NCBI GenBank assembly: GCA_038728585.1
Contig: JAVYTR010000002.1
Location: 62,001 to 126,000 of the forward strand
Source of the DNA: Conexivisphaerales archaeon
GTDB lineage: Archaea; Thermoproteota; Nitrososphaeria; Conexivisphaerales; DTJL01
Reading direction: 5' to 3'
DNA: 64,000 bases
The position numbers were made by a program, and so were the translations under genes. The stretch's first letter is position 1. The number at the start of each line of letters is the position of its first letter. Of this stretch, positions 9,495 to 61,108 are shown piece after piece. A model generated the notes under the pieces. That model was not told the origin of the DNA. It saw only the letters and a list, made by a program, of their open reading frames with translations, and ran no database searches.

Positions 9495-11201
9495 TCAGCC
9501 GTACTTGTATCTGACGCCATGCCCGTCCCATTCATGGTCAAATGTAACTATCTCAGGAGGCCCTATTGCTCCGCACGTGCCGCATGCAACGCATGCGACG
9601 TGGTCGAACCTTAGCCTTCCCTCCCTTATATCCTTCAGGCTCAGCTCCATAGCCTCCCTGCTGAATCCCTGTTCAGGTTCCTTTTGGTTGAGAAGCTTCA
9701 GGTTATGGAGGTAGAGGTCTCTGAATGAAGCGAAGACTCCTTTCTGTGTGAAGAGTGTGTAGCAGTTGACAGGACAAGCTGGTACCCACGGCTTTGCTGG
9801 GGATTCCGACCCCTTCTCTATGTTAACCTGAATGTGGGACCTTATCCTATCCTCATCATATTCAAGCAGACCTGTCCTCTGCTGTATCAGCTGAATGGCA
9901 TCTCCGTTGGCTCTTCTCTTGGCTACGAGGGATGCTACGTCAGAATCTGGTTTTGCTTGCTTGGTTAGAAAGCCAGTTCTGAACAAGAATCTGGGGATGT
10001 ATCTGTAGACCAGCCTGCTCTCTGTAACTCTGCTGTCCCTTGCAGACCTCATCACATCGCCATAGAGAGGAGAAAGTCTCTCCCTGTATTCGGCCAGGGT
10101 TGCAGAGCTGAAGACACCCTTCTGGGAAGCGGAGAGATATGTTTCTGCAGCCATTATGCCCGAAGCTATGGCTCTCCTCATCCCATCTATAAGAGGCCCT
10201 ATCTTCACGAAACTTCCCAATGCATCACCAGCAACAAGGAAGCCGTCTGTGTAAGGCTTATCGACCATGCATGAATACCCTCTCGGTATGTTGTGGGCTG
10301 AATACTCTAGCAGCTCTGCTCCGTCAAGAATCTCTGCGATCATTGGATGGGACTCGAACTCGTTCAGCACATCCAGCAGCTTTCCTACTTCGTAGAACCT
10401 TTCTGATGTTGCTTCGACCAGCGAATCTAGACCCACCACCAAGCCTATTGAAAGCGTATCTCTGTTCGTGTACAGGAACGCTCCTCCCTTGAGGCCGTGC
10501 ATGAAATCGCCAAGATAGAAGTTAGCTATTCCTTCGCCTTTGCCAATTGAAAACCTCTTTTCTATCAGTTCAGGGTTCAGACTGTAAACATGCTTTATCC
10601 CGTGGTAAAGCTGCTCAGGCTTCAGCCTGCTGCGCAGAGAGGCCTTTTCTATCAGTTTTGATGTTACTCCTGAGCAGTCTATCACCACCTTTGCGGTTAT
10701 CTCTTCCCTGTTTGTCCTTACTCCTTTTACCTTGCCATCTTCCACTATCAGGTCTTCTGCTGTGGTGTCTGTTGAAAGCATGGCTCCTGCCTCAACTGCC
10801 TTGAGTGCAAGCCAGTGGTCGAATCTTCTCTTGAGAACTGAGTAATCGTGGCCAGTCCCTATCTTTGTACTGAAGAAACCGAGTCTTGAAGGAAGGGAAT
10901 TATCAGTAAGTCTGTAATACCTGTATGAAAGGTCCTTGTCAGGCCTGGAAAGCATATACACGCTATGACTTACTATCTTTCTCTCGACAGGAGCCTCTGT
11001 TTCAAAGTTAGGCAGCAGGTCCAGCATACCATAACCAGAGATGTAGCTCCCATAAAGAACGCCTCCTGTAACGTTTCTCTCTCCAGGTATCCTGGCCTTT
11101 TCTAGCATCAGTACGTTTGCTCCCTTTCTTGCCAAAGTAAGGGCTGATGCTGAGCCTGCAGGACCAGCCCCCACAACTATTACGTCGTATTCTGTGGACA
11201 T
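9495..11201 (-). CDS. fixCX: ETF:quinone oxidoreductase with fused ferredoxin domain (FixC-FixX)
   Basis: Passes electrons from the electron-transfer flavoprotein to the membrane quinone pool. The N-terminus has the FAD Rossmann motif GAGPAGSASAL (residues about 12-22), then GGVLYG and the GDALG motif typical of FixC. The C-terminal 100 residues carry a FixX-like iron-sulfur module with ACVACGTCGAIGPPE and an additional upstream Cys-Pro in ACPVNCY. FixC and FixX are usually separate, so this is a fusion of 568 residues. It is third in the etfB-etfA-fixCX operon. In Pyrobaculum the EtfABCX complex is electron-bifurcating; whether this one is cannot be decided here. Confidence 0.9.
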   Translation of the reverse strand: MSTEYDVIVVGAGPAGSASALTLARKGANVLMLEKARIPGERNVTGGVLYGSYISGYGMLDLLPNFETEAPVERKIVSHSVYMLSRPDKDLSYRYYRLTDNSLPSRLGFFSTKIGTGHDYSVLKRRFDHWLALKAVEAGAMLSTDTTAEDLIVEDGKVKGVRTNREEITAKVVIDCSGVTSKLIEKASLRSRLKPEQLYHGIKHVYSLNPELIEKRFSIGKGEGIANFYLGDFMHGLKGGAFLYTNRDTLSIGLVVGLDSLVEATSERFYEVGKLLDVLNEFESHPMIAEILDGAELLEYSAHNIPRGYSCMVDKPYTDGFLVAGDALGSFVKIGPLIDGMRRAIASGIMAAETYLSASQKGVFSSATLAEYRERLSPLYGDVMRSARDSRVTESRLVYRYIPRFLFRTGFLTKQAKPDSDVASLVAKRRANGDAIQLIQQRTGLLEYDEDRIRSHIQVNIEKGSESPAKPWVPACPVNCYTLFTQKGVFASFRDLYLHNLKLLNQKEPEQGFSREAMELSLKDIREGRLRFDHVACVACGTCGAIGPPEIVTFDHEWDGHGVRYKYG

Positions 11202-11208
11202 GTATCGC

Positions 11209-12375
11209 TCATCCTACCCTCTTCAGTCTGCTGATCATCTCCGGCAGAAATTCGTACAGGTCTCCGACTATGGGGTAATGAGCTATCTGAAAGATGGGGG
11301 CGTTTGGATCAATATTAACAGCGACTATCTTCTTTGATTTCTGCATCCCGACCCTGTGCTGGAGTGCACCGCTAATGCCCAGGGCTATGTAAACATCAGG
11401 CTGAACAGTTGCACCAGTCTGCCCAACCTGCCTTTCCGGGATTACAAGCCCGGAAAGCTCCTTTATTTCAGCATAAAGTAGAGCTCTGGTCACCCCTATC
11501 TCTGCCTTCACACCAAACCTGGATGAGATGATGTTCCTCAGCTCGTCTGCCATATCATACGCCTCCCTTGGGTTCCTTGGGTTGCCTTTTGCATCCTTCA
11601 GCACTCCAAGACCCAGGCTAATTATTACCTGGGCATCCCTCAGCTCTACCTTCGGTTTCGGAAGTTCTGTTATCTCCTTCACAACTGCCCTGTACGTCTT
11701 TGTGTTCAGAAACTGCAGCTTTTCTGCGGAATTTGCAACCACCCGATTCATTCTTTCAAGAGGTCTGAAGTTTCCAGGTCTTATTGTGGCCATCTGCGGC
11801 CTATGTTTTGGAGTGTATATCTTGGCGACCCTTGTACCGAAGTCAGGCCTTATCTGAATGACTAGATTCTTGTAGGTTTCGTTCAGCCTCGGGTTGACAA
11901 AGTCTCCTACTTCGAGTTCTATGTTATCAGTTGCAAGTCCTGTCTTAAGCCTGTATGCAAGCCTGGGAGCCAGGTCTTTGCCCAGCTCATCTGCTACGAA
12001 CAGAAACGCATAAGGTCTCCTTTCCCTTACAAGTCTTTCAAGAAAGTCGACATATTTGAGGTTCAGCCTGTCAGCCAGCTGGTCAGAATCGGCATATATG
12101 ACTGAATCAGCACCGTACTGAAGGCAGACTAAAGGAAGATCAGCAAGGTTGTAGCCGAGCATAACGGCGACGAGTTTCTGTCCGAGCTTGTCAGCTACCT
12201 TTCTTCCTGCAGCCAGAATCTCCAGAGCTTCTCTGCTCAGTCTGTCGCCATCTCTCTGGACATAGACCCAGACGTCTCTATAGTCTTGGTTTTGATTCTG
12301 GTTTTGATTCTGGTTTTGGCTCTGAACTTTCGCCTGAGCCTGAGCAGGTTTGTTCTGCTCTAGAGATGCCATCAT
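11209..12375 (-). CDS. etfA: Electron transfer flavoprotein alpha subunit, with Gln-Asn repeat leader
   Basis: FAD-binding alpha subunit that accepts electrons from acyl-CoA dehydrogenases. The C-terminal FAD domain shows GQTG and the SGALQHRVGM segment followed by NIDPNAPIF, as in the family. The N-terminus is preceded by an unusual leader of alternating Gln and Asn (residues about 19-30) encoded by a 12-bp DNA repeat at 12288-12323. That makes it 388 residues instead of about 320-330. The start overlaps the etfB stop by 4 nt (or 1 nt if the second ATG at 12372 is used). Confidence 0.92.
   Translation of the reverse strand: MMASLEQNKPAQAQAKVQSQNQNQNQNQNQDYRDVWVYVQRDGDRLSREALEILAAGRKVADKLGQKLVAVMLGYNLADLPLVCLQYGADSVIYADSDQLADRLNLKYVDFLERLVRERRPYAFLFVADELGKDLAPRLAYRLKTGLATDNIELEVGDFVNPRLNETYKNLVIQIRPDFGTRVAKIYTPKHRPQMATIRPGNFRPLERMNRVVANSAEKLQFLNTKTYRAVVKEITELPKPKVELRDAQVIISLGLGVLKDAKGNPRNPREAYDMADELRNIISSRFGVKAEIGVTRALLYAEIKELSGLVIPERQVGQTGATVQPDVYIALGISGALQHRVGMQKSKKIVAVNIDPNAPIFQIAHYPIVGDLYEFLPEMISRLKRVG
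12288..12323. repeat. 12-bp tandem repeat inside etfA
   Basis: Two exact copies and one near copy of a 12-base unit GGTTTTGATTCT (plus-strand reading) lie end to end. On the coding strand they give the Gln-Asn leader of EtfA. The length is a multiple of three, so gain or loss of units would keep the frame. Confidence 0.85.
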
Positions 12376-13538
12376 CTTCCGAACAGCTCCTCCATCAGCA
12401 TGTCGAAGTCAAAAGTACCTACCAGGCCCTTCTCTTTGAGTTGCTGAAGCAGTCTTTCGGGCAGGTCAGATGCAAGGTCTCCCCTTTCAAATGCAGGATA
12501 TTCCTTTCCGTCGAACGAAAGCTTCTCAACCCTCTCAAGGAATACGAGACTCTTGCCTAGAAACTTCTGGACAGGCGGTTTTCCTATATCAATGCCAGGA
12601 CCTACTATAGTTGGCGAACCTGCAAGGCCCAGTCTTGAAGGGTCTGCACCTATATCGGATGCTGAATATTTCTTGGCTATCCTGACCTTTCCCATGTAGC
12701 TCCTGCTCCTGACAAAAATCTGTGCTGAAGGTGAGGTCGGTTTTGGCCTGAATTCTGAGTTTATTGTCAGAACTGCTGGTAGCAGCAGCTGAAGTTTCTG
12801 AACCAGCCTTCCCATCTTCCTCTCTGCAAAAACGGTAAGACTTGATGGCTCGATATCAAAGTTGTCCACATACGTGGCATGTGGGAGCTCGAAACCAAAC
12901 AATTCAGATAAGGCCTCTGCAACCTGAGGGCCCACGCTACCTGTTTCACCATCTGTTGTCTTTATCCCAGCGAGAACTATGAAGTTCATCACTTCATCCC
13001 TCGCCTTTCTGAGACCTTCCTGAAAGCCACTTGAGTCAATCCTTCCCTCTACGTAGTCGGATACAAGGTTGCTTCTTATTGAAGGGAGAGATGAATATAC
13101 CCAGTTGGGTATCAGGTTCTGTTCATACAGCTGCTTTGCCTTCTGCAGAACCGCTTCCTTCCCAGCCTTTGCAAGCGAGTCTATCGCCTCCAGGTGTATG
13201 TCAATCACCTTTTTGACACCCAGCCCTAAAGTATACGCTGTTGCAAGAGTATCTGCGCCAGCCATCTTCGGGTCGCTCAGGATGTAGGCTTCGTCCATAC
13301 CGAAGACCTCTACATCGTAGAGCTGTGAAAGTATAGGTTGGAGTTTGAAGTCCGGACCCATGGTGAGACCTATGACCTTGCCTCCCACTCTCCTTCTGAC
13401 AAAATCAGCAGCCTCTATCGCCTTTCTGTCATGAGGGTTGAGTACCAGGTCCATCTCTTCTCTCTTAAGCACACCACCTACGGTGACGACCTTTGTTGTT
13501 CTGGCCGGCACCCCTTTGAGCAGGCATATTATCAGCAT
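12372..13538 (-). CDS. etfB: Electron transfer flavoprotein beta subunit, enlarged
   Basis: Beta subunit of the ETF heterodimer. Family landmarks are LNPHDRKAIEAA (near residue 32), GADTLATAYTL (near 94) and the nucleotide-binding block IKTTDGETGSVGPQVAEAL. It has 388 residues where EtfB usually has about 250-260. The extra length comes from an insertion of roughly 60-70 residues between GADTLATA and TTDGETG, and a C-terminal extension of about 50. It is the first gene of the operon with etfA and fixCX. Head to head with malic enzyme. Confidence 0.9.
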   Translation of the reverse strand: MLIICLLKGVPARTTKVVTVGGVLKREEMDLVLNPHDRKAIEAADFVRRRVGGKVIGLTMGPDFKLQPILSQLYDVEVFGMDEAYILSDPKMAGADTLATAYTLGLGVKKVIDIHLEAIDSLAKAGKEAVLQKAKQLYEQNLIPNWVYSSLPSIRSNLVSDYVEGRIDSSGFQEGLRKARDEVMNFIVLAGIKTTDGETGSVGPQVAEALSELFGFELPHATYVDNFDIEPSSLTVFAERKMGRLVQKLQLLLPAVLTINSEFRPKPTSPSAQIFVRSRSYMGKVRIAKKYSASDIGADPSRLGLAGSPTIVGPGIDIGKPPVQKFLGKSLVFLERVEKLSFDGKEYPAFERGDLASDLPERLLQQLKEKGLVGTFDFDMLMEELFGR

Positions 13539-13656
13539 GGGCGCCCAAGTTCGACACCTGACGATGGTTACGCTTTAAGCATATTGCAAATTAATGCATA
13601 GCCGGGAAATTGTTAAGCAAAGATTAACTTCTTTACTGCTCGTGGGCCAGAAGTGA

Positions 13657-50324: not shown

Positions 50325-52169
50325 CTATTTCACTATGTGAATTACGGGGGCTGTGGAGAGAGTCCAAGTGCCTTTAACAGGGTCATACCTCGAATTGACA
50401 AACACATGCCAGTTCTCATCATCCAGCTTCGGATAGTCTGCTCTGTAATAGTAGCCTGGCCACCTTGTCTCCTTCCTGAAAAGTGTATGCCTTACTACAG
50501 CTTCGGCAGTCCAGACCCTATGATGAAGTTCCCAAGCTCTCTGCAGCTGGTGAAGGTCCTGAGCTGCAAGGCTTGACAGGTCTTCCTTAAGAAAGTTCAG
50601 GAGCTCGAGGGCTCTGTTCAGCATGAACTCGTTAGTTATGTACATCGTGCTCCACCCTCCAGCATATTCGTCCATTATCTTCTCAAGCCTCACCACACCC
50701 TGGTTCGGGTAGATGTAAAGAGGAGAGACTGTTCCTGCAACTATCTTGTTCTTCCCGACTTCGTAGTTCTCGAGCGGCTTGAAGACCTCCTGTTTGATCG
50801 TATCAACCTGCTGCCTATCAATGTCAGGCCTGTATTCTGAATGCTCCATTATGTATCTAACAGCAGCTTTGGCAGCCAGCCTGCCCTCGGTGAAAGAACC
50901 GGATGAGAACTTGTGAGCCGAGCCGCCAATCGTGTCTCCAGCCCCGAACAGTCCTTCAACTGTAGTCATTCTGTTGTAACCCCATCTGTACTGCTCTGGA
51001 GAGATATCTTCTGGCCCGCTTGCCCAAGCGCCTGAACAGGTAGCATGGGAGCCCATTATGTATGGCTCTGATGTCTGGAGCTCTGAAGGTGTCACCTTTG
51101 GGTCTATGTTCTGTGAGGCCCAGACTATCGACTGACTCATAGTCATGTCAAGAAAGTCTTCCCAGCCCAGCTCCTCCTTCTCTCGCGTATCGAGAACCTG
51201 TTCAGTATGGATGTAGATTGGACCCCTACCAGCCTTCATCTCTCTCAGCATTGAATCGTTTCTCAGACATGTAGGAAAAGGCTTGGCATCGACATAGCTT
51301 CCGTACAGCTCTCTCTGTTCATCGACATACTTCTTCTCGTATTCCTCTCCATAGGCGTTCTTCGCAACTGCCTTCAGAGCTAAGAACCAAGCCCCAACTG
51401 GACCGTATCCATCCTTGAACCTTGTCACAACCAGCCTGTTCTCCATCTGGGTCATCGTTGCCCCTACCCTTATCAGGAGTGCATAGGCTGAGCCAGTGCT
51501 CCATGGAGCATACCATGTCCTCCCTGCACCTTCGCCAACAGATTTCGGCCTGTAGACATGAGTTGCTCCTCCAGCAGAGACGATCACAGCTTTTGCCCTG
51601 AAGACGTAAAAAGTTCCATCTCTTACACTGAACCCGGCTGCTCCAGAAATTCTGTTTCTGTTCGAAGCATCTGTTAGAAGATGAGTCACCATTATCCTGT
51701 TGTAAACTTCTGATGCAGACTTCTGGGCTGCCTCCGCAACTATGGGCTTATATGATTCGCCGTGTATCAGTATCTGCCATCTTCCCTCTCTCTTGTACCT
51801 GCCCGTCTTCTCGTCGTAAATTATAGGCAGACCCCATTCCTCAAAGAGATGAACTGTAGAATCGACATGTCTTGCAATGTCAAGAACTAGGTCTTCCCTG
51901 ACTAATCCCATCAGGTCGCTTCTGGTATATCTGACAAAATCTTCTGGTGTATTTTCGTTCCACCTCATCCCCATGTAGCAGTTTATGGCTGATAGGCCCA
52001 TCGCAACCGCCCCACTCCTCTCAATGTTTGCCTTCTCGACAACAACTATCTTCAGCTTCCTCCCCCAGTACCTAGCTTCGTAGGCAGCACCACAGCCTGC
52101 CATCCCTCCTCCTATTATCAGCAAGTCGCTATCGACAAACCTTGTAGAGGTTGATGTACGCACACTCAT
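50325..52169 (-). CDS. aprA: Adenylylsulfate reductase subunit alpha
   Basis: FAD subunit that interconverts APS with sulfite and AMP. The FAD fold begins LLIIGGGMAGCGAAYEARYWG near residue 16. Conserved substrate-pocket stretches include YMGMRWNENTPEDFV, SAGGATHVYRPKSVGEGAGRTWY and GAGDTIGGSAHKFSSGSFTEGR. Length 614 is normal. In sulfur oxidisers it runs toward APS; here the absence of dissimilatory sulfite reductase genes and the presence of sHdr favour that direction. Confidence 0.95.
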   Translation of the reverse strand: MSVRTSTSTRFVDSDLLIIGGGMAGCGAAYEARYWGRKLKIVVVEKANIERSGAVAMGLSAINCYMGMRWNENTPEDFVRYTRSDLMGLVREDLVLDIARHVDSTVHLFEEWGLPIIYDEKTGRYKREGRWQILIHGESYKPIVAEAAQKSASEVYNRIMVTHLLTDASNRNRISGAAGFSVRDGTFYVFRAKAVIVSAGGATHVYRPKSVGEGAGRTWYAPWSTGSAYALLIRVGATMTQMENRLVVTRFKDGYGPVGAWFLALKAVAKNAYGEEYEKKYVDEQRELYGSYVDAKPFPTCLRNDSMLREMKAGRGPIYIHTEQVLDTREKEELGWEDFLDMTMSQSIVWASQNIDPKVTPSELQTSEPYIMGSHATCSGAWASGPEDISPEQYRWGYNRMTTVEGLFGAGDTIGGSAHKFSSGSFTEGRLAAKAAVRYIMEHSEYRPDIDRQQVDTIKQEVFKPLENYEVGKNKIVAGTVSPLYIYPNQGVVRLEKIMDEYAGGWSTMYITNEFMLNRALELLNFLKEDLSSLAAQDLHQLQRAWELHHRVWTAEAVVRHTLFRKETRWPGYYYRADYPKLDDENWHVFVNSRYDPVKGTWTLSTAPVIHIVK

Positions 52170-52615
52170 TTCTGTACCACCTGCTCCTTAGGAGGAAGCT
52201 TGAGATACTCTGGTTCATGAGAAAGAAGCTGGGTGTTCAGCTCGGCTTCTCTGAGAGGAAAGGTATCTGGAGGCTTTATTGAACCAAAAGGCGTTGTCCT
52301 TATCGGGAAGGTGAAATTCTTGACGCTGCCGTTTCTGTACTTAACCTGCCAGGAGACCTTTCCCTTCTCAGGTTCTCTCAGCACTGTGAGTGCATGACCA
52401 AGAGGGCAGAAATCTGCGTAACCCCTCATATCAATCGCATGCTGAGGACAGGCTTTGACGCATGAGTAGCATTCCCAGCAGTAGTCTGGCTCTATGTTGT
52501 AAGCTCTTCTGAGCTTCCTGTCTATGTGCATTATGTCACTCGGGCAGATCTCGACGCATTTACCGCAACCATCACAGATGCTTATATCGACAAACGTTGG
52601 CAAACCAGCTTTCAC
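52166..52615 (-). CDS. aprB: Adenylylsulfate reductase subunit beta
   Basis: Iron-sulfur subunit carrying two [4Fe-4S] clusters. CDGCGKCVEICP (near residue 14) and CWECYSCVKACP (near 47) with CPLGH supply the ligands. The C-terminal tail, which wraps AprA in known structures, is present; total length 149. It overlaps both neighbours by 4 nt. Confidence 0.95.
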   Translation of the reverse strand: MKAGLPTFVDISICDGCGKCVEICPSDIMHIDRKLRRAYNIEPDYCWECYSCVKACPQHAIDMRGYADFCPLGHALTVLREPEKGKVSWQVKYRNGSVKNFTFPIRTTPFGSIKPPDTFPLREAELNTQLLSHEPEYLKLPPKEQVVQK

Positions 52616-53340
52616 CTCTCAGCCTTGGTTTCGACCGGCTTGGGAAGGTTGCTTATACCCTTCTCTTCATCTATCCTGTCAAGTATGAATAGTCCAGCCT
52701 TGTAAAATGAATGAGGGAACTTTGTCCAGTGTGTAAGTGCGAACATCAAAGTTATTAGAAGAAAGTATGCATAAATTGTTACTTGCGATAGGAAAGCAAG
52801 GGATAAAGCAGAAAACAGGTAGGCAGCTATATCGAACGCTGATATTGCGATAAGGTTGATTATGAAGGCATCAGAGTAGTTCAGTGAAAATGTAGAATTG
52901 CCTTCAAACTTGACGTTCACCCTCTGAGGAAGGTACCAGAGTGTCCCGACAATAAGAGATAGATTTCCGACGAGCTGTGAAATCATGAATGGGTTTGACG
53001 GAGAAACGTAGAATTTCCCAGCAAGACCTGTCGAAGATACAAGTATTGATAGTACGATTATAATGAACCCCCACAGTGTCAGCAGGTGGGAAGCTCTTCT
53101 CGCTGGACTGCATTTTCCCAGCGGGTAAGAAGAAGCAATATCAATCAGAATCGCCTTTGCAAGCGCAGAAGAGATGCTTCCCTTCGCTTCTGACGCTTCC
53201 AGGCTCCTTCTCTGTCTTCTCATGAACTCAAGCTTCTTGTCAAAAACAAAATCGTAGGCAAAGGCAGCAAGAAAAATCAGCAGGGATGATAGGACGTAAA
53301 TCTGCAGGTAGAGAACGGGTATTAAAGGAAACGCAGCCAA
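52612..53340 (-). CDS. Membrane anchor of APS reductase, AprM/QmoC-like
   Basis: An integral membrane protein with about five to six hydrophobic segments. The cytoplasmic loop CSPARRASHLLTLWGFI resembles the haem-binding region of the HdrE/QmoC/AprM membrane family, and a later LTHWTKFPHSFYK contains two further His. First gene of the apr-sat operon, overlapping aprB by 4 nt. It would connect AprBA to the quinone pool. Haem ligands and the AprM name are inferred. TTG start. It has a paralogue-like counterpart at 59977. Confidence 0.7.
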   Translation of the reverse strand: MAAFPLIPVLYLQIYVLSSLLIFLAAFAYDFVFDKKLEFMRRQRRSLEASEAKGSISSALAKAILIDIASSYPLGKCSPARRASHLLTLWGFIIIVLSILVSSTGLAGKFYVSPSNPFMISQLVGNLSLIVGTLWYLPQRVNVKFEGNSTFSLNYSDAFIINLIAISAFDIAAYLFSALSLAFLSQVTIYAYFLLITLMFALTHWTKFPHSFYKAGLFILDRIDEEKGISNLPKPVETKAER

Positions 53341-53476: not shown

Positions 53477-53791
53477 CTATCTGGTTGACTGAAGTATCCT
53501 TGCCTCTGCTATCCTTCTCTCTCTAACTATCTGGTCAACAAGGTCATAGGCCTTCAGAATTCTTTCATCTGCTATGCTGTAATACACCAGCCTGCCCTCC
53601 TTCCTTGTCTTGACTATACCCAGCCTTCTGAGCATAGCTAGGTGTTGAGAGATGGTTGATTGGCTGGTATGAAGCTGCCTCTGGAGCTGCGATACAGTCT
53701 TTCCCCCTTCTCTGAAGACATCTAGCAAGGCTAACCTCAGAGGATGGGAGAATATCTTGCAGAATTCAGCGTGCATCTCGTATGCCTTCAT
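53477..53791 (-). CDS. ArsR-family transcriptional regulator
   Basis: A 104-residue winged helix repressor of the ArsR/SmtB family: HPLRLALLDVFREGGKTVSQLQRQL, STISQHLAMLRRLGIV (recognition helix near residues 45-60), and the wing TRKEGRLVYYSI. It has only one Cys (residue 11, EFCKIFSHP), not the Cys pair of the sulfane-sulfur sensors SqrR/BigR/sHdrR, so its ligand is uncertain. Its place in the middle of the sulfur island makes it the likely local regulator. Confidence 0.88.
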   Translation of the reverse strand: MKAYEMHAEFCKIFSHPLRLALLDVFREGGKTVSQLQRQLHTSQSTISQHLAMLRRLGIVKTRKEGRLVYYSIADERILKAYDLVDQIVRERRIAEARILQSTR

Positions 53792-53891: not shown

Positions 53892-54143
53892 TCACTTCAA
53901 CCTTCTTATAAGAAATCTGTAGACCTTCGGTGTTTCATTCAGCTCTTCCACAGATACCAGCTCGTTTCCTGTTATCCTAGCCCAGGCAGCAAGGTCAGGC
54001 CTTGAGCCCGGGTCAGTAGCAAGAACTTCAAGCAGTTCTCCTACCTGTATCTCCTTTATCGCTGCACTTGTCTTAAGGACTGGGACCGGACACAGCAGGC
54101 CCTTGGTGTCCAGAACCTTAACGGGGTTGTTTTGGGTCGTCAA
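53892..54143 (-). CDS. tusA: TusA sulfur carrier protein
   Basis: An 83-residue TusA with the full active-site motif in GLLCPVPVLKTSAAI (Cys near residue 19). It binds sulfane sulfur as a persulfide and hands it to DsrE proteins or the sHdr complex. Divergent from the dsrE gene at 54253. A TATA box (ATTTAAATA region, 54175-54185) precedes the TTG start. Confidence 0.92.
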   Translation of the reverse strand: MTTQNNPVKVLDTKGLLCPVPVLKTSAAIKEIQVGELLEVLATDPGSRPDLAAWARITGNELVSVEELNETPKVYRFLIRRLK

Positions 54144-54224: not shown

Positions 54225-54246
54225 AATATTATCATATTCTAATATG
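54225..54246. promoter_or_regulatory. Candidate operator ATATTA-N8-TAATAT at dsrE/tusA
   Basis: AATATTA-N8-TAATATG again, with perfect 6-bp arms. TTTAATATTA within it is also the probable TATA box of dsrE, centred 27 nt before the ATG at 54253, so a bound repressor would block initiation. The site is also upstream of the divergent tusA. Confidence 0.5.
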
Positions 54247-54252
54247 CCTACA

Positions 54253-54684
54253 ATGCAATCAACAGGCCAAAAGAATAGACTTATTATGGTTGCAAGCAGA
54301 GGAACTGCTGACGGTCTCTACCCTGCACTTATACTAGCCACCACTGCAGCAGCTCAGAATATGCCAGTAGATATCTACTTTACATTCGGAGGAATGAAGT
54401 TGCTCACAAAGGGGGTTGCGGAGAGCATAAAACCATCAGTTGACCTTGGTCTTTCGAAGGAAGAGCTGAACTCGCTTCTGACCAAGGGTGGTATGCCAAG
54501 CCTACTTGACATGCTGAGAGCAGCAAAGCAGGCAGGTGTTAAGATACACGCCTGCTCGCCAACGATGGCTCTCTTCGGAATGACTGAAAAGGACTTGACA
54601 GCTGAGCTGTGCGATGATGTTATAGGTGCATCAACCTTCCTGGAGCTTGCTAGAGACCCTAACGCTGTTACTCTCTTCATCTAG
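54253..54684 (+). CDS. DsrE-family protein, sHdr-associated (DsrE3-like)
   Basis: A DsrE-fold protein with a putative active Cys in IHACSPTMALFGM near residue 101 and a second Cys in ELCDD. Hdr-linked DsrE3A proteins exchange thiosulfonate with TusA, whose gene lies divergently 100 nt away. I take the second ATG (54253) from the TATA position; the frame also has an ATG at 54244. Followed by T-tracts. Confidence 0.85.
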   Translation: MQSTGQKNRLIMVASRGTADGLYPALILATTAAAQNMPVDIYFTFGGMKLLTKGVAESIKPSVDLGLSKEELNSLLTKGGMPSLLDMLRAAKQAGVKIHACSPTMALFGMTEKDLTAELCDDVIGASTFLELARDPNAVTLFI

Positions 54685-54718: not shown

Positions 54719-55393
54719 TTATGTAATTATGAAGTAGCCTTCCTTCTTCATGATGAAAATCACGGAGTCAATGACTTGCTGGAAGGTAATACCTGGCATC
54801 CAGGTTTCCAAGTTCGCAACTTCTGGAGAGGCGGGTGGAGGGATACAAAGGCTGTTCAGCGTCTTCAGGTTACTGTTCAGCAGAAGCGTACCGTGGACCA
54901 GAAGACATCTTAAGCCGGACCTTGCTGCCAAGCCTGAAACCTTCTTGCCATCAACCTCTATTCTGTTGGGTGGGGCGAAGTAAGCTCTTAGACCGAGATG
55001 AACAAGTGCTTCTATCATGAACCTCGAACCCTGCTGAAAGATCTTTTCAGGGGACCTGAACCGTCCGTTCGTCTTCAGGAAGAGGCTCCAGTTCAGGTTT
55101 CCTTTATCATGATAGACAACCCCTCCTCCAGTAAGCCTCCTGTAGACTGGAATCTTCATCTCCTCAGCAAGCTTCTCATCGTACCAACCATATTTAGGAC
55201 TCCTTATCTGTCCTGCTACAAGGCATTCGTCATTCACCCAGAAGTACAGAGTTTCTGGAGAGTTTCCGTTTTCCACATCGAAGAAGGTCGTCTTCTCTGT
55301 AAGCAGGTTGAGCTGCGGGTCTTTTGACTGGGATAGTATGACCTTCAGTATCTTGCCGGTAGAGGAGGGTGCATCTTCTCCCATAGGAAGCAC
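54719..55393 (-). CDS. Lipoate-protein ligase, sulfur-oxidation type
   Basis: Attaches lipoate or octanoate to the adjacent lipoate-binding protein. RRLTGGGVVYHDKGNLNWS near residue 88 is the lipoate-site motif, and KKVSGLAARSG carries the catalytic Lys. Length 224 matches catalytic-domain-only LplA. GTG at 55393 or ATG at 55384 could start it. It is downstream of lbpA in the same operon, which supports the sLpl role known in sHdr organisms. Confidence 0.88.
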   Translation of the reverse strand: MLPMGEDAPSSTGKILKVILSQSKDPQLNLLTEKTTFFDVENGNSPETLYFWVNDECLVAGQIRSPKYGWYDEKLAEEMKIPVYRRLTGGGVVYHDKGNLNWSLFLKTNGRFRSPEKIFQQGSRFMIEALVHLGLRAYFAPPNRIEVDGKKVSGLAARSGLRCLLVHGTLLLNSNLKTLNSLCIPPPASPEVANLETWMPGITFQQVIDSVIFIMKKEGYFIIT

Positions 55394-55428: not shown

Positions 55429-55869
55429 CTACTTTCCGCATTCTATTCCCCATTCTTCTATTATCTGCTTATACCTTTCCGCAGCATCTTTTGCCTGAAG
55501 CAGGTGAACTTTTTCTTCGTTCGCCTTTGACGGCCTGATCTTCAGCACCCAGGTGCTATACGGGTCAGAATTAATCGCTGAAGGCTGTGCCTTGATTACA
55601 GGGTTAACCTCTACAACAGTCCCGCTGAGGGGAGCTCTCATAGGACCCATGTACTTGGCGCTTTCAACCGTTGCTGCTATCGCTCCTCTTTCGAGGTTTG
55701 TGCCTGCTTCCTTAACCTTGATGTATATTATCTCTCCAGCATACGCTTGGCCAGGGTCTGTAGCCCCTATTATAGCAACATCAGACTCCAGCCTTACCCA
55801 CACATGGTATTCAACATCGTACAGCAGTCCTTCGGGGAACCTGCAGCCTTTGTATTCATTGTCAGCCAT
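55429..55869 (-). CDS. lbpA: Lipoate-binding protein LbpA (GcvH-like)
   Basis: A lipoyl-domain protein resembling GcvH. The lipoylated Lys is in TVESAKYMGP (Lys72), inside the family beta-hairpin. Length 146 is like LbpA, which carries sulfur intermediates for the sHdr complex, more than the housekeeping H protein. Its neighbours are dsrE, a lipoate ligase and sHdr genes. A glycine-cleavage role with GcvPA/PB elsewhere in the window cannot be excluded. Confidence 0.88.
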   Translation of the reverse strand: MADNEYKGCRFPEGLLYDVEYHVWVRLESDVAIIGATDPGQAYAGEIIYIKVKEAGTNLERGAIAATVESAKYMGPMRAPLSGTVVEVNPVIKAQPSAINSDPYSTWVLKIRPSKANEEKVHLLQAKDAAERYKQIIEEWGIECGK

Positions 55870-55881
55870 AGGGGATCGCTC

Positions 55882-56259
55882 CTAAAAGTAAAGCACAGCG
55901 GTTTGAGGGTCTGATGCCATCTCTATCAGCGTGACTGCTCCTGCAAAGTCAACACCTTCAGGCAGGTCCCCTTCGTGCATGTCCCATATCACCTTCGCCG
56001 AAGTGCTGCAGCACAGCAGCTTTGCTCCGTTCCTCATTGCAAGGTCGATGACCTTCTTCAACGGTTCACCACCCTCTGTTGTCCTCAGGTTATCTGCTAC
56101 ACCCTTTTTCAGGAGTGATGGCCCCTCTGCCAGAAAGAACATGTAGGTTTCATACCCCATGGATGCGCTGGCAGCTGCGTAGTAAAAAGGGGTGAATGCC
56201 TTCTTCGGTTCCGAAGCACCTGTGCTAACAACAAAAAGAAACCTCTTCTTTTGCTCCAT
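55882..56259 (-). CDS. DsrE-family protein
   Basis: Third DsrE-fold protein of the island, 125 residues. Putative active Cys pair in KLLCCSTSAKVIW near residues 88-89. It heads the operon with lbpA and the lipoate ligase, 12 nt apart, and is divergent from hdrC1. A TATA box (ATTATAAATAT on the minus strand, 56284-56294) lies about 30 nt upstream of the ATG. Confidence 0.85.
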   Translation of the reverse strand: MEQKKRFLFVVSTGASEPKKAFTPFYYAAASASMGYETYMFFLAEGPSLLKKGVADNLRTTEGGEPLKKVIDLAMRNGAKLLCCSTSAKVIWDMHEGDLPEGVDFAGAVTLIEMASDPQTAVLYF

Positions 56260-56406: not shown

Positions 56407-57174
56407 TTGAGTCTGTCGAAGAAAGTGAGCAGGATGCTGCAGAGGCTGAACGAAGACGGATGGCACTATGGTGGACTGCCAGGACTGCAATGGGAAGCAG
56501 AGAATGCAAGACAAGCTGACAGGCGATTGATAAGGGAGATAGCTGATGAGCTGAGAAGCGATGTAAGGTTTGAGGAGTTTTACCATGCATGCATAAACTG
56601 CGGAAACTGCACATCGAAATGCCCACCTTTCAGGCTTGTTGACTTTGAACCGAGAATTGTGGTGCAGAAGGTGATGCACAGTAAAGATGAGCCTGAACTT
56701 CTTTACCAGATGATGGACCAGTACATCTGGTCCTGCTTTCAGTGCTATTCCTGCTGGGAGGTCTGTCCTGCACACAACAACCCAGGCGGGCTTGTAGCGA
56801 TTCTGAAGGAGATAGCTGTAAGGCATGGGCTGAATTCTGCCAAGAAAGCTCTTGAACCGTACAGCAAGATAGTGTACAAGATAATGACTACAGGAACTCA
56901 GATAACACCAGACATGCATACATCTATTGCTCTGTTCAGGGACTGGGGACCTCACAAGGCAGAGCTGGCCAAGAACATAAGGGCAGAAAGGGCTGCTGTA
57001 CCTGTAGAAACTATGGCAGGCGTGATGGATAAGTCCTGGAGGGTTGACGATGAGACTATGAAAGAGCTGATGTTCATAGAGAAAGAGGCAGGAGTATTTG
57101 ATTCTGTTGAAAAGACGCTGAAGGATGTAACGGAGATGGTAAAGGATACTGCTAAGGAGGCTGGTGTAGAGTAA
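56407..57174 (+). CDS. hdrC1: sHdr complex subunit HdrC1
   Basis: Iron-sulfur electron-transfer subunit of the sulfur-oxidising heterodisulfide reductase-like complex. Two [4Fe-4S] ferredoxin motifs: CINCGNCTSKCP (near residue 60) and CFQCYSCWEVCP (near 110). The C-terminal 100 residues are helical, and total length is 255. TTG start (an ATG at 56434 is possible). It overlaps hdrB1 by 1 nt. Confidence 0.88.
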   Translation: MSLSKKVSRMLQRLNEDGWHYGGLPGLQWEAENARQADRRLIREIADELRSDVRFEEFYHACINCGNCTSKCPPFRLVDFEPRIVVQKVMHSKDEPELLYQMMDQYIWSCFQCYSCWEVCPAHNNPGGLVAILKEIAVRHGLNSAKKALEPYSKIVYKIMTTGTQITPDMHTSIALFRDWGPHKAELAKNIRAERAAVPVETMAGVMDKSWRVDDETMKELMFIEKEAGVFDSVEKTLKDVTEMVKDTAKEAGVE

Positions 57175-58475
57175 TGGCTTCTGATAGCTCGGTAATAGAG
57201 CTTGGTAAGGGAGAGCAGGTTGAGATGAGCAGAGAAGATGTCCAGCTGTTTGAAAGACTATCATCGGAGAGAAGGGCAAGGCTAGCAATGGGGACAACCG
57301 AAGATTACCTCAGAATGCTCGAAAAGATGAGGGAGCTTGAGAAGAAGGGCGAGATAATAGTGCATCACGTAGAGGAGGACTACAAGCCCAAAGTTGTCAA
57401 AACTCTCAGCAACAGGCAGAAGAAGATACCCACAGAAGAAACCTGGCAGCATAAATCATGCGGCCAGTGCGGCCACATACCAGGCTACATATCAGCATTA
57501 TACTGGATAATGTCAGAGCTCTCCGTACCTTTTGTCGATGATACAAACCAGACATCATGTACAGCCTGGAACTATTATGGCTCGGGCACCTCTAACTCTG
57601 TTGCTCTGTCTGCAGTTTTCCTGAGGAACATGCACGTCGCCTGGGAGAAGAACGCCTATCCCCTCATTCACTGCGGAACAAGCTATGGGGATTACAAGGA
57701 GTGCAGGTTTCTGGTGGTGATGAGTGAAGAGATCAGGCTAAAAGTGAAGTCAATACTCAACAAGATAGGCAGGGATATAGTCATACCTGAAGAGCTTGTT
57801 CACTACAGTGAATGGCTGCACGTAATGAGGGAAAGGATAGCTGAAAGGCAGAAGCTTGATTATTCTCAGGTGAAAGCTGCTGTGCATCCTGCCTGTCATA
57901 CATACAAGCTGATGGCCGAAGACTATACGTATGATGAAAACATACTTGGTGGTACAAGGCCAGCACCTACATCCAGCATAATCCTTGCGCTCGGTGCCAA
58001 GCTGGTAGACTATAGTACTTGGTATGATTGCTGCGGTTTCGGCTTCAGACATATACTGACAGAAAGAGAGATTGCCAGGTCTTTTGCATACTTCAGGAAG
58101 ATCAGGCCTGTTGTGAGAGAAACAGGGGCAGATGTCTTGCTGACACACGATACAGGCTGCGTGACAACCCTCGACAAGAGCCAGATTGTAGCTATGGCTC
58201 ATGGCTACAAGGAGACCATTCCAGTCATCTCAGACAGTCAATTTGCAGCTCTGGCCATGGGTGCTCATCCCTTCAAGGTCTGCCAGCTTCAGTGGCATCT
58301 AGCAGACTGGAAGCCTTTCCTCAGCAAGATTGGGATAGATTGGCAGGAGGCTGAGAAGGAGTACAAAGAATACATAGAATCCATAAAGAAGGGGGCGAAG
58401 CCTTCGTTCATCCGGTCTGCACCCAGGAGACTGCAGCCCAGGGTTAATGTGAAGTTTTCCAAGGTGGGAGAATGA
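57174..58475 (+). CDS. hdrB1: sHdr complex subunit HdrB1
   Basis: Putative catalytic subunit with CCG-type cysteine domains. Cys-bearing segments: SCGQCGH (near residue 95), SCTAWN, IHCGTSY, HPACHTY, YDCCGFGF (near 285) and THDTGCVTT (near 325). The last lacks the second Cys of a CxxC, and the first domain has no CC pair, so the cluster ligation differs from classical HdrB. At 433 residues it has an N-terminal extension of about 90 residues and a basic C-terminal tail. Confidence 0.85.
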   Translation: MASDSSVIELGKGEQVEMSREDVQLFERLSSERRARLAMGTTEDYLRMLEKMRELEKKGEIIVHHVEEDYKPKVVKTLSNRQKKIPTEETWQHKSCGQCGHIPGYISALYWIMSELSVPFVDDTNQTSCTAWNYYGSGTSNSVALSAVFLRNMHVAWEKNAYPLIHCGTSYGDYKECRFLVVMSEEIRLKVKSILNKIGRDIVIPEELVHYSEWLHVMRERIAERQKLDYSQVKAAVHPACHTYKLMAEDYTYDENILGGTRPAPTSSIILALGAKLVDYSTWYDCCGFGFRHILTEREIARSFAYFRKIRPVVRETGADVLLTHDTGCVTTLDKSQIVAMAHGYKETIPVISDSQFAALAMGAHPFKVCQLQWHLADWKPFLSKIGIDWQEAEKEYKEYIESIKKGAKPSFIRSAPRRLQPRVNVKFSKVGE

Positions 58476-59524
58476 GTAAGCAGACAGATAATCAGGTTCT
58501 CGTAGTAGGAGCAGGTCCTGCAGGGTTGAGGGCTGCGATGGACCTTGCAGAATTTGGCATCCACGTGCTGCTTGTGGAGAAGCGGGGAGAGCTGGGAGGA
58601 GCTCCGACAAGGTGGAAGTACCATTCCCTAGCTCCTGACTTCACCCCTACCGAACAGGTTCTTGGTCCCATGATAGAATTCTGTGAAAGTTCAGAGCTTG
58701 TGGAGGTGAAGAAGAACTGCACCATCACTGAGTTTGGTGGAGAAGCAGGAAACTTCAGAGTTACGATCAAGTCACCAGAGGGGACAGAAAGGAGAAATGT
58801 ATCTGCAGTTATAGTTGCCACGGGGTTTGAACATTTTGATGCAAGCGTAGACCCCAGATACAGCTATGGCAAGGCGCCAAACGTTATAGGGATAAACGAG
58901 CTTGAAGTGATGCTCAGTCAGGGGAAGGTGACAGGGCACGATGGCAAGGTACCAAAAAGGGTTGCATTTGTCTTCTGCGTTGGTTCGAGAGACAGGTCAA
59001 CTAACCCTTGGTGCTGCACTGTATGCTGCGGGGTGAGCATAAAACAGGCGATAGAGCTGAAGCAATTGCTGAAGGATGTTCAGGTCTATATGATCTACAT
59101 GGACATCAGGACTGTAGGCCTGTGGGAGAAGCTGTACTGGGATAGCATGGAGAAATACGGTATAAACTACATAAGAGGGAGAGTTGGTGAGGTCTACTAC
59201 ACAGGGGAGAAGCTGCTGGTCAAGGGCGAAGATACGCTCGTCAGAGGGCCTTTCGAAGTACTTTTCGATATGGTGGTTCTTGCAGTTGGTATTGAGCCTG
59301 GAGAAGGGACAAAGCAGATATCGAAGCTGCTTGGGCTCAGGGTTAACGAATACGGCTTTCTTGCTCCCAGAATTCCTAACGTGCACTTCGATTCAGGGAA
59401 GGAAGGAATCTACCTTGCAGGTGCATGTGTAGCTCCCATGTCGGTAGAGGAGAGCATAGCCGAAGGCTCAGCAGCAGCGATGCAGGCTGCGAAGATGGTT
59501 GCAAAGTTGAAGGTGAGAGTTTGA
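58472..59524 (+). CDS. hdrA: sHdr complex subunit HdrA
   Basis: FAD-binding core of the sHdr complex. The dinucleotide motif VVGAGPAGLRAAMDL begins near residue 10, an ATGFEHFD segment follows, and the HdrA-type cluster motif is CVGSRD...CCTVCCG (Cys near 169 and 180-185). At 350 residues it matches the short sHdrA, without the ferredoxin modules of methanogen HdrA. Overlaps both neighbours by 4 nt. Confidence 0.92.
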   Translation: MSKQTDNQVLVVGAGPAGLRAAMDLAEFGIHVLLVEKRGELGGAPTRWKYHSLAPDFTPTEQVLGPMIEFCESSELVEVKKNCTITEFGGEAGNFRVTIKSPEGTERRNVSAVIVATGFEHFDASVDPRYSYGKAPNVIGINELEVMLSQGKVTGHDGKVPKRVAFVFCVGSRDRSTNPWCCTVCCGVSIKQAIELKQLLKDVQVYMIYMDIRTVGLWEKLYWDSMEKYGINYIRGRVGEVYYTGEKLLVKGEDTLVRGPFEVLFDMVVLAVGIEPGEGTKQISKLLGLRVNEYGFLAPRIPNVHFDSGKEGIYLAGACVAPMSVEESIAEGSAAAMQAAKMVAKLKVRV

Positions 59525-59976
59525 CGGAAGAGAAGGAGAAGGATGAGAAGGGGAAGTTCATTATTGAGAGAAGGTACGTCGATGATGACAGAATAATAGA
59601 GCCAGAGAAGCTGGAGGTAGGGGGTATAGACATATCAGGTAGATGGGGTACACTTGTATTACCCAGGACGATAGAGGATTTTGATACATCGATCTACGAA
59701 AGGGTTCAGGAGCTGCCAAGAGGGGAGAATATAGGCAAATGCTGGCAGTGCGGAAACTGCACGGCTGTATGCCCCGTCGCCCATGCTCATCCTGAGTTCA
59801 ACCCCAGATATCTGATACATGTGGTCAGGATGGGATACAAGGCTGAGATAAACAGGCTGAAGGAATCAGTTTACCTCTGTTCAGGGTGCGGTCTATGCAG
59901 CGCTGCCTGTCCCAAGGGCGTCGACCCGCAGGGAGTCATGATAGCAATGAGCATAGCATTCAAGGCGAAGGAGTAA
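59521..59976 (+). CDS. hdrC2: sHdr complex subunit HdrC2
   Basis: Second HdrC-type subunit with CWQCGNCTAVCP (near residue 74) and CSGCGLCSAACP (near 120), each a [4Fe-4S] site. A longer frame from 59425 exists, but its first 32 codons are the hdrA gene in another frame. I use the TTG at 59521, which overlaps the hdrA stop by 4 nt as elsewhere in this operon. The first 12 residues are Lys/Glu-rich. Length 151. Confidence 0.88.
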   Translation: MTEEKEKDEKGKFIIERRYVDDDRIIEPEKLEVGGIDISGRWGTLVLPRTIEDFDTSIYERVQELPRGENIGKCWQCGNCTAVCPVAHAHPEFNPRYLIHVVRMGYKAEINRLKESVYLCSGCGLCSAACPKGVDPQGVMIAMSIAFKAKE

Positions 59977-60756
59977 ATGCATTTGCTCGCTACTCTAGCA
60001 TTTTACATCATACTGCCCAGCTCTGTGGTCAACCCATACCTGCTTGAATTATTCCTTGCCTTGCTAGCTGTAATTTCATTCGTTATGCTATACAGGAGAA
60101 TCAAAGGATGGCATGTCGAGTTCACACCTCTTTCACTGCTCGGCAAAGTCAGCGCAAGGAAAGGTTCAGATATGGAAAGAGTATCCATTAGCAAAAAGCT
60201 TTCGATATTGGCAGGTGTAACTTTCAGAGATATACTGCTTCTCAGAAGAGCTGGTGCATGGTGCGAAGAAGATATTCATACAGCTGGAAGGGGCATGCTG
60301 ATGTGGGGTTTTGGTCTTCTTGTGATTGTAAGCTTCATAGGTTTCATCCTTGACCCATCCATGTCGTCCTATGCTATTCAGTACCCTATGAAATATTTAC
60401 TTGCAGCGTCCAAAGCTATTATTGCACTTGGAGCAACAGTGCTGCTGCTGAGGAGACTCCTTTACAGAAACAGGAGGATTTCAACCGATAAGCACACATG
60501 GATACTTCAGTCAGTCTTCCTATTCATTGGCATAAGCGGTCTTCTAGCAGATTTAGCATCTTTTGGAGCGAGTCTTTTTCTATTCGAAGTCTTTTACTTG
60601 CTCTATTTATCTTCTTTCTCAGCCTTCCTGCTGTACTATCCGTTCAGTGAACTTGCTTTCCTGATATGGAAGGGTTCTCTTCTGACCCAGGAAAGCTTTG
60701 AGGAGCAGCTGAAATTAGCGATAAAGAGTGGGAAGTCTTTTGGAAGCAGTGGATAA
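59977..60756 (+). CDS. HdrE/QmoC-like membrane subunit
   Basis: A membrane protein with five to six hydrophobic segments (near residues 5-40, 107-125, 138-160, 175-230). The loop CEEDIHTAGRGMLMWGFG resembles the corresponding region of the AprM/QmoC-like protein at 52612, so the two are probably homologous. The gene follows hdrC2 with no gap. An HdrC plus HdrE pair equals the two halves of QmoC, suggesting a membrane anchor for this sHdr complex in place of HdrB2, which is absent. Confidence 0.7.
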   Translation: MHLLATLAFYIILPSSVVNPYLLELFLALLAVISFVMLYRRIKGWHVEFTPLSLLGKVSARKGSDMERVSISKKLSILAGVTFRDILLLRRAGAWCEEDIHTAGRGMLMWGFGLLVIVSFIGFILDPSMSSYAIQYPMKYLLAASKAIIALGATVLLLRRLLYRNRRISTDKHTWILQSVFLFIGISGLLADLASFGASLFLFEVFYLLYLSSFSAFLLYYPFSELAFLIWKGSLLTQESFEEQLKLAIKSGKSFGSSG

Positions 60757-61108
60757 GGAGAGTCTGGCGTTCAAGACCGAGGTAGCCTTTCTGGGTAAAG
60801 ACCATGTAGGTTCTGTGAGGCATTTTGAAGGCCTGAGTCTGTCATATTTTATCGAAGCAACAAGAAAGGAGCTTTCTGGTTTGAACCTCGATTATAAGGA
60901 AGAAAAGTTAGCGCTTAAGGGAAGAAATGTCTACACCAGCGTGGCTGAAGCAGGCAAGGGGATATACATCTGGGTGAAGGCATTAGAACTGGAAGCGGGG
61001 GTTGTAGTGGAAATAAGAGTTGTGCATGGTACAGAAGACAGTGCTCAGGCCGATGAATTGCTCTCGAACCTTCTGGGGAAGATCGAAAGCGATGTAGCAA
61101 ACGGATGA
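60728..61108 (+). CDS. Unknown protein of the sHdr operon
   Basis: I do not recognise it. About 126 residues or fewer, soluble, mixed alpha/beta (AFKTEVAFLGKDHVGSV, then a strand KGIYIWVKALELEAGVVVEIRVV) with no Cys, so not a redox protein. It overlaps the membrane gene by 29 nt if GTG at 60728 is used; TTG at 60740 is another start. Its place as last gene of the operon suggests an assembly or accessory role. Confidence 0.6.
   Translation: MGSLLEAVDKESLAFKTEVAFLGKDHVGSVRHFEGLSLSYFIEATRKELSGLNLDYKEEKLALKGRNVYTSVAEAGKGIYIWVKALELEAGVVVEIRVVHGTEDSAQADELLSNLLGKIESDVANG

Follow-up and report, generated by a model that had tools for sequence, protein, structure and literature searches.

A conserved third sHdr gene layout in archaea, lacking hdrB2 and carrying a gene for a predicted QmoC/NarI-type membrane subunit

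In a 64,000-nucleotide stretch of the genome of a Conexivisphaerales archaeon (GenBank assembly GCA_038728585.1, contig JAVYTR010000002.1, positions 62,001 to 126,000; hereafter the window), six plus-strand genes form an sHdr cluster that reads hdrC1-B1-A-C2, followed by a transmembrane protein gene (TM) and a gene for a small protein (small). The same order is found in eight genomes of uncultured archaea and is a real, conserved third sHdr layout beside types I and II. The cluster likely encodes a membrane-anchored sHdr, in which a core fed by the lipoate-binding protein LbpA would send electrons through a shortened HdrC2 and a NarI/QmoC-type subunit to quinone. The layout is not described in the literature searched; many subscription papers lay outside that search, so a prior mention is possible. 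The genes, in window positions, are:

56407-57174, plus strand: sHdrC1, ferredoxin-like subunit with two [4Fe-4S] clusters, 255 amino acids (Fer4_8 8.9e-12; HdrC models)
57174-58475, plus strand: sHdrB1, CCG-domain subunit and probable catalytic subunit, 433 amino acids (CCG 1.8e-8; HdrB model 3.5e-31)
58472-59524, plus strand: sHdrA, FAD/Fe-S subunit, 350 amino acids (HdrA models up to 1.8e-71)
59521-59976, plus strand: HdrC2, two [4Fe-4S] clusters, shortened, 151 amino acids from TTG 59521 (best NCBIfam match qmoC, model positions 14-87)
59977-60756, plus strand: TM, predicted QmoC/NarI-type membrane subunit with five predicted transmembrane helices and haem-ligand histidines lost
60728-61108, plus strand: small, conserved soluble protein with a beta-alpha-beta4-alpha fold, 126 amino acids from GTG 60728 (start uncertain)

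According to the open reading frames of the window, neighbouring genes mostly overlap or abut. The TTG start of C2 at 59521 overlaps the stop of sHdrA, and the TAA stop of C2 (59974-59976) is immediately followed by the ATG of TM, in frame with C2. The gene order and the gapless junction, both proposed in a preliminary description of this DNA, are thus confirmed.

All eight TM-type clusters keep the order C1-B1-A-C2-TM-small and none contains B2 or hyp, whereas hyp-C2-B2 is present in each of the 10 other archaeal clusters examined (eight Sulfolobales-type, G436, and G449). The TM-type genomes comprise four members of the window's Nitrososphaeria family (G000, the genome of the window, and its relatives G001-G003, whose public names are Nitrososphaeria archaeon DRTY1_bin.15, Thaumarchaeota archaeon Centralia_MAG_53, and archaeon YF1.bin89), two Marsarchaeota (G2 ECH_B_1 and G1 BE_D), and one genome from each of two further Thermoproteota families (G255 and G314). 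Conservation of a six-gene order in eight genomes is more than chance would give. Because the HdrB1 proteins of these clusters form one clade in the HdrB1 tree (support 100/100), the tree indicates that the layout arose in one old switch, since retained in about five families, and not eight times independently. TM identity is 41-46% inside the window's family and approximately 19-33% outside it. A contig scan found five loci, all archaeal, with patterns drawn from the TM of the window's family and therefore blind to the haem-bearing subtype described below. One genome of another family (G285:C10, L165, ~6952-7488) encodes on the reverse strand an sHdrA fragment with 65% identity over 58 residues, beside a frameshifted small gene; these fragments are a decayed remnant of a TM-type cluster.

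The genome of the window is 99.59% complete. We searched it and 11 other genomes for hdrB2 with the CCG model PF02754, which matches the cluster B2 gene in four Sulfolobales-type genomes. No hdrB2 was found in the window's genome by this model, which matched only HdrB1 and an HdrD/EtfD-like protein of ~620 amino acids encoded on contig C10. In G001 and G002, the HdrD-like gene adjoins fatty-acid genes (3-hydroxyacyl-CoA dehydrogenase), as EtfD/FadF would. In Marsarchaeota, the CCG proteins other than B1 are GlcF-like, encoded beside GlcD-like genes, and in G1 also a Lut/Ldh-like protein of 689 amino acids. We rejected an hdrB2 encoded elsewhere, since the remaining CCG proteins resemble EtfD/FadF, GlcF, or Lut/Ldh, and PF02754 yields no B2 candidate that co-occurs with TM-type clusters or is common to all eight genomes. 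The lack of hdrB2 noted from the window alone thus extends to the genome. Canonical hyp was likewise not found in the TM-type genomes (a lone, chance-level match in G001, E 0.059), while two B2-type genomes used as controls match at 3.5e-94 and 9.6e-125.

The core of the complex resembles that of the known systems. TM-type C1, B1, and A are about 38-56% identical to the Sulfolobales subunits (38-42% for sHdrC1 of the window's family), and eight sHdrB1 cysteines are invariant over TM-type and B2-type clusters. The C2 subunit is ~150-165 amino acids long in TM-type clusters with clear starts vs ~230 in B2-type clusters, and a C-terminal tail of ~80 residues is lost wherever B2 is absent; this tail would be the part expected to face B2. 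Both Cys4 motifs of C2 are retained.

C2 and TM match separate parts of one NCBIfam model, qmoC: C2 at model positions 14-87 (E 1.3e-13) and TM at 183-355 (E 2.6e-12). Since these are the N- and C-terminal parts of a single QmoC model, the proposal that the two genes correspond to a split QmoC holds. The QmoC family (NF038018) is defined for one protein that carries both an HdrC-like and a membrane domain, with a cut-off of 300 bits; C2 (51 bits) and TM (47 bits) are separate genes and are homologous to the family rather than members of it. The TM of G255, which keeps a first helix, covers qmoC 115-360 at 101 bits and matches Pfam Nitrate_red_gam. Searched against solved structures, a profile built from the eight TM proteins matches NarI (E 6.8e-6).

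An AlphaFold2 model of TM (predicted local distance difference test score (pLDDT) 80.6, predicted template modelling score 0.74) has five long helices plus shorter ones. Of the five to six helices counted in the preliminary description, five agree with this model, and an extra N-terminal helix occurs in the two haem-bearing relatives, G255 and G314. Foldseek places NarI and EtfD at the top, with probability 1.00 for NarI chains at E of only 0.01-0.2. In VIA-align the top eight matches have Z of 11.9-12.3, the best being 12.3 over 178 residues at 5.7 Å, and EtfD scores 10.1; Z near 12 can be attained from common helical-bundle arrangements. The predicted structure therefore has the five-helix NarI fold by the NarI profile, Foldseek, and VIA-align. 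Taken together, the fold and sequence matches convincingly place TM in the QmoC/NarI family, which agrees with the suggestion that it is an HdrE/QmoC-like protein. In a membrane-domain tree, the eight TM proteins cluster with one relative encoded in a molybdoenzyme operon (80/84), beside QmoC-like proteins. That relative, a NarI-like protein of 303 amino acids in G215 (L146, 7521-8432), which belongs to the family of G255, lies in a molybdoenzyme/Fe-S operon without sHdr and may be related to the protein from which the sHdr membrane subunit arose.

The haem ligands divide the TM proteins. QmoC-like archaeal proteins have three invariant histidines (136, 241, and 259, G255 numbering) and one near-invariant histidine (32), which by their conservation and spacing would be the ligands of two bis-His haems. 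All four are kept in the TM of G255 and G314 and none in the window's family, which lacks the first helix and has R105 in place of H136, F228 in place of H259, and Y/N or another residue in place of H241 (alignment backed by hhalign, E 7e-17). Nearly all are lost in Marsarchaeota, of which G1 retains one at the 241 position. H101 is the only histidine invariant in the window's family and Marsarchaeota. The two haems b of the QmoC/DsrM/NarI module are thus not predicted in G000-G003, and the haem-based transfer expected by likeness to QmoC and DsrM has to be given up for the window's organism. The loss is unusual because the histidines of DsrM are reported to be highly conserved (PMC10504309).

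The small protein is encoded in all eight TM-type clusters. Across a sample of 398 genomes, it was detected only in the TM-type genomes, in the G285 remnant, and as one weak match. Its AlphaFold2 model (pLDDT 91.7) has a beta-alpha-beta4-alpha fold, and no cysteines are conserved. Searches of Pfam and NCBIfam gave no match and the PDB no convincing one. The fold matches are generic (Z ~10 for the spermine-synthase N-terminal domain, Flpp3, KA1, and helix-grip proteins) and not informative. We rejected the idea of a relocated canonical hyp, to which it is unrelated (hhalign probability 0.2%), and treat it as an accessory protein with no assigned role.

The usual neighbours of the sHdr-LbpA pathway lie upstream of the operon, mostly on the opposite strand:

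55882-56259, minus strand: DsrE-family sulfurtransferase (PF02635 4.2e-11)
55429-55869, minus strand: LbpA, GcvH-like lipoate-binding protein (GCV_H 1.8e-30)
54719-55393, minus strand: LplA-like lipoate-protein ligase (LplA-B_cat 3e-36)
54244-54684, plus strand: DsrE-family protein, DrsE_2 type (PF13686 4e-22)
53892-54143, minus strand: TusA sulfur carrier (PF01206 7.5e-22)
53477-53791, minus strand: ArsR-family regulator, placed like sHdrR (PF01022 8.6e-13)
52612-53340, minus strand: AprM, a second, separate QmoC/NarI-like membrane protein (qmoC positions 151-355, 2e-11)
52166-52615, minus strand: AprB (PF12139 1e-26)
50325-52169, minus strand: AprA, adenosine 5'-phosphosulfate (APS) reductase alpha subunit (TIGR02061 964 bits, above the curated cut-off)

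The locus therefore has the broad sHdr-LbpA gene set, a C1-B1-A core with LbpA, a lipoate ligase, and TusA/DsrE, and the set is kept in the relatives. AprM lies ~6.6 kb from the sHdr membrane gene and retains two QmoC-type histidines. TM is not a duplicate of AprM, as the two branch separately in the tree. An EtfB-EtfA-FixC-like operon is found at ~9495-13540, ~45 kb upstream of the sHdr cluster. An Rfam search of the window gave no matches.

AprA is present in every genome of the haem-free group, and COX1-type oxidases in all eight TM-type genomes. True AprA was not found in G255 and G314 (88% and 73% complete, respectively), in which a DMSO (dimethyl sulfoxide)-reductase-family molybdoenzyme of 933-938 amino acids is encoded convergent to the sHdr operon (L049, 4948-7764; L050, 9107-11908). 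The L050 copy has DmsA/PhsA-like scores. This enzyme, beside the haem-bearing TM-type clusters, is possibly a sulfite- or thiosulfate-handling partner.

Two sHdr types have been defined, the syntenic shdrC1B1AHC2B2 (type I) and shdrC1B1AHB3 with etfAB in one cluster (type II) (PMC11582611). The order hdrC1-B1-A-hyp-C2-B2, taken beforehand as that of known clusters, describes the other archaeal clusters examined and leaves out type II. The cluster of the window shares with type I (Sulfolobales, Acidithiobacillus, Hyphomicrobium) the C1-B1-A core, the eight B1 cysteines, and the LbpA, LplA, TusA, and DsrE neighbours, but it has no B2 or H, its C2 is ~80 residues shorter, and it carries the NarI/QmoC-type subunit and the unrelated small protein instead. 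It also shares the core with type II, and in both the variation lies at the C2/B2 end. Type II fuses C2 and B2 as B3 and has H and clustered etfAB, whereas here B3 and H are absent, HdrB1 is the one CCG protein that PF02754 detects in the cluster, and EtfAB is distant. As in QmoABC, an HdrC-like ferredoxin domain is joined to a NarI-type membrane module beside an HdrA-like protein; unlike in QmoABC, the counterpart of QmoC is divided between two genes and combined with B1 and C1, there is no QmoA/QmoB pair, and in the window's family all four haem histidines are missing. AprM, DsrM, HdrE, NarI, and EtfD share the NarI-like membrane fold and superfamily with TM, AprM differing in its tree branch and its place beside AprBA in the same locus.

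Known sHdr complexes are not simply soluble, as had been supposed. A membrane-bound Aquifex complex is reported (Boughanemi 2016, as cited in PMC6067878), and delivery of sHdr electrons to the quinone pool was proposed in 2009, with inhibition of sulfur oxidation by HQNO (2-heptyl-4-hydroxyquinoline N-oxide) (PMC2754497). Canonical Sulfolobales HdrB2 (L051, 4695-5612) scores 158 bits with the NCBIfam SdhE model vs 165 bits with the HdrB model. The SdhE of type-E succinate/fumarate:quinone reductases is thought to attach to the membrane through amphipathic helices, with no transmembrane segments (PMC2680327). It is an electron exit at the membrane, in the position of the HdrB2 that resembles it, but is a monotopic CCG protein and not an integral membrane protein like TM. 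The SdhE likeness, the Aquifex complex, and the 2009 proposal together suggest that HdrB2 may dock at the membrane and itself be the exit toward it. TM-type clusters thus seem to have swapped one electron-exit module for another, which mirrors Qmo, where HdrBC can stand in for QmoC (PMC10504309).

In the mechanism we propose, TusA/DsrE sulfurtransferases would load lipoyl-LbpA, and the C1-B1-A core would oxidize the sulfane sulfur presented by this carrier toward sulfite, which AprAB(M) would take on to APS. We infer that the subunits form a complex and that electrons run outward from the core, leaving by the two [4Fe-4S] clusters of the shortened HdrC2 into the membrane subunit, where quinone would be the acceptor. 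TM, with small, would fill the place of HdrB2 and hyp in type I and of the fused HdrB3 in type II. Haem ligands remain in the G255 and G314 clusters. As the QmoC haem histidines are lost in the window's family, haem-free quinone reduction is the likeliest reading for the window's organism; in this family and Marsarchaeota it would probably take place near the C2 clusters, on the cytoplasmic side, and be electroneutral. Fumarate reductases that lack haem are one precedent, and NrfD-type subunits (PMC8076601) offer a further comparison for haem-free reaction with quinone. The narrower proposal of a third, membrane-anchored sHdr type, whose NarI/QmoC-derived subunit carries no haem and hands electrons of the C2 clusters directly to quinone, is in our judgement evenly balanced.

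Several points weigh against quinone reduction by an anchored sHdr. As all TM-type clusters stem from one event, their agreement does not amount to eight independent observations. TM is divergent, with no Pfam match and a score far under the qmoC cut-off, and its fold match counts only alongside the sequence matches. Loss of the haem ligands in the window's family and Marsarchaeota removes the fold's known electron route, so TM could be a mere anchor or assembly partner, with electrons leaving otherwise, for example from dihydrolipoyl-LbpA to NAD+ or electron-transfer flavoprotein. Dihydrolipoamide-based NAD+ reduction is the published sHdr-LbpA model (PMC6067878), and the EtfBA-FixC-like operon of the window would suit the flavoprotein route. 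We consider this explanation unlikely, given that the Cys4 motifs of C2 are both intact, that C2 adjoins TM in the manner of QmoC, and that the G255 and G314 homologues keep every haem histidine. A dihydrolipoamide-dehydrogenase-like gene lies near one Sulfolobales cluster, whereas none was seen adjoining TM-type clusters on inspection by eye, without a family search.

An EtfD-like two-CCG protein is also encoded elsewhere in G000-G003, G255, and G314, and it could supply the HdrB2 function to an ordinary complex to which TM is an add-on. The fatty-acid context in G001 and G002, the restriction of Marsarchaeota to GlcF and, in G1, the Lut/Ldh-like protein, the lack of a candidate common to the eight genomes, and the disappearance of the C-terminal tail of C2 as well make this improbable. 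It is very improbable that TM and small form a unit for sulfane-sulfur transport or sensing, co-transcribed by happenstance: the generic fold and lack of assigned function of small would allow it, but TM belongs with an electron-transfer family and no transporter family, and the junction of C2 with TM is QmoC-like.

The route of electrons from sHdr to the respiratory chain is debated, the options being the quinone pool, NAD+ via lipoamide, or both. If TM-type clusters work, B2 and hyp are not needed for sulfur oxidation itself, and HdrB2/B3 would be an exchangeable exit for electrons and would not belong to the sulfur-oxidizing active site. Since haem ligands have been lost within a single lineage of the subunit, that lineage provides a natural experiment on the contact between a NarI-type subunit and quinone. 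Certain Sulfolobaceae have been called the sole archaea known to oxidize elemental sulfur (2024, PMC11323534). The proposal, if true, would place sHdr sulfur oxidation in Marsarchaeota and a Nitrososphaeria lineage, and further archaeal lineages would join the candidate sulfur oxidizers.

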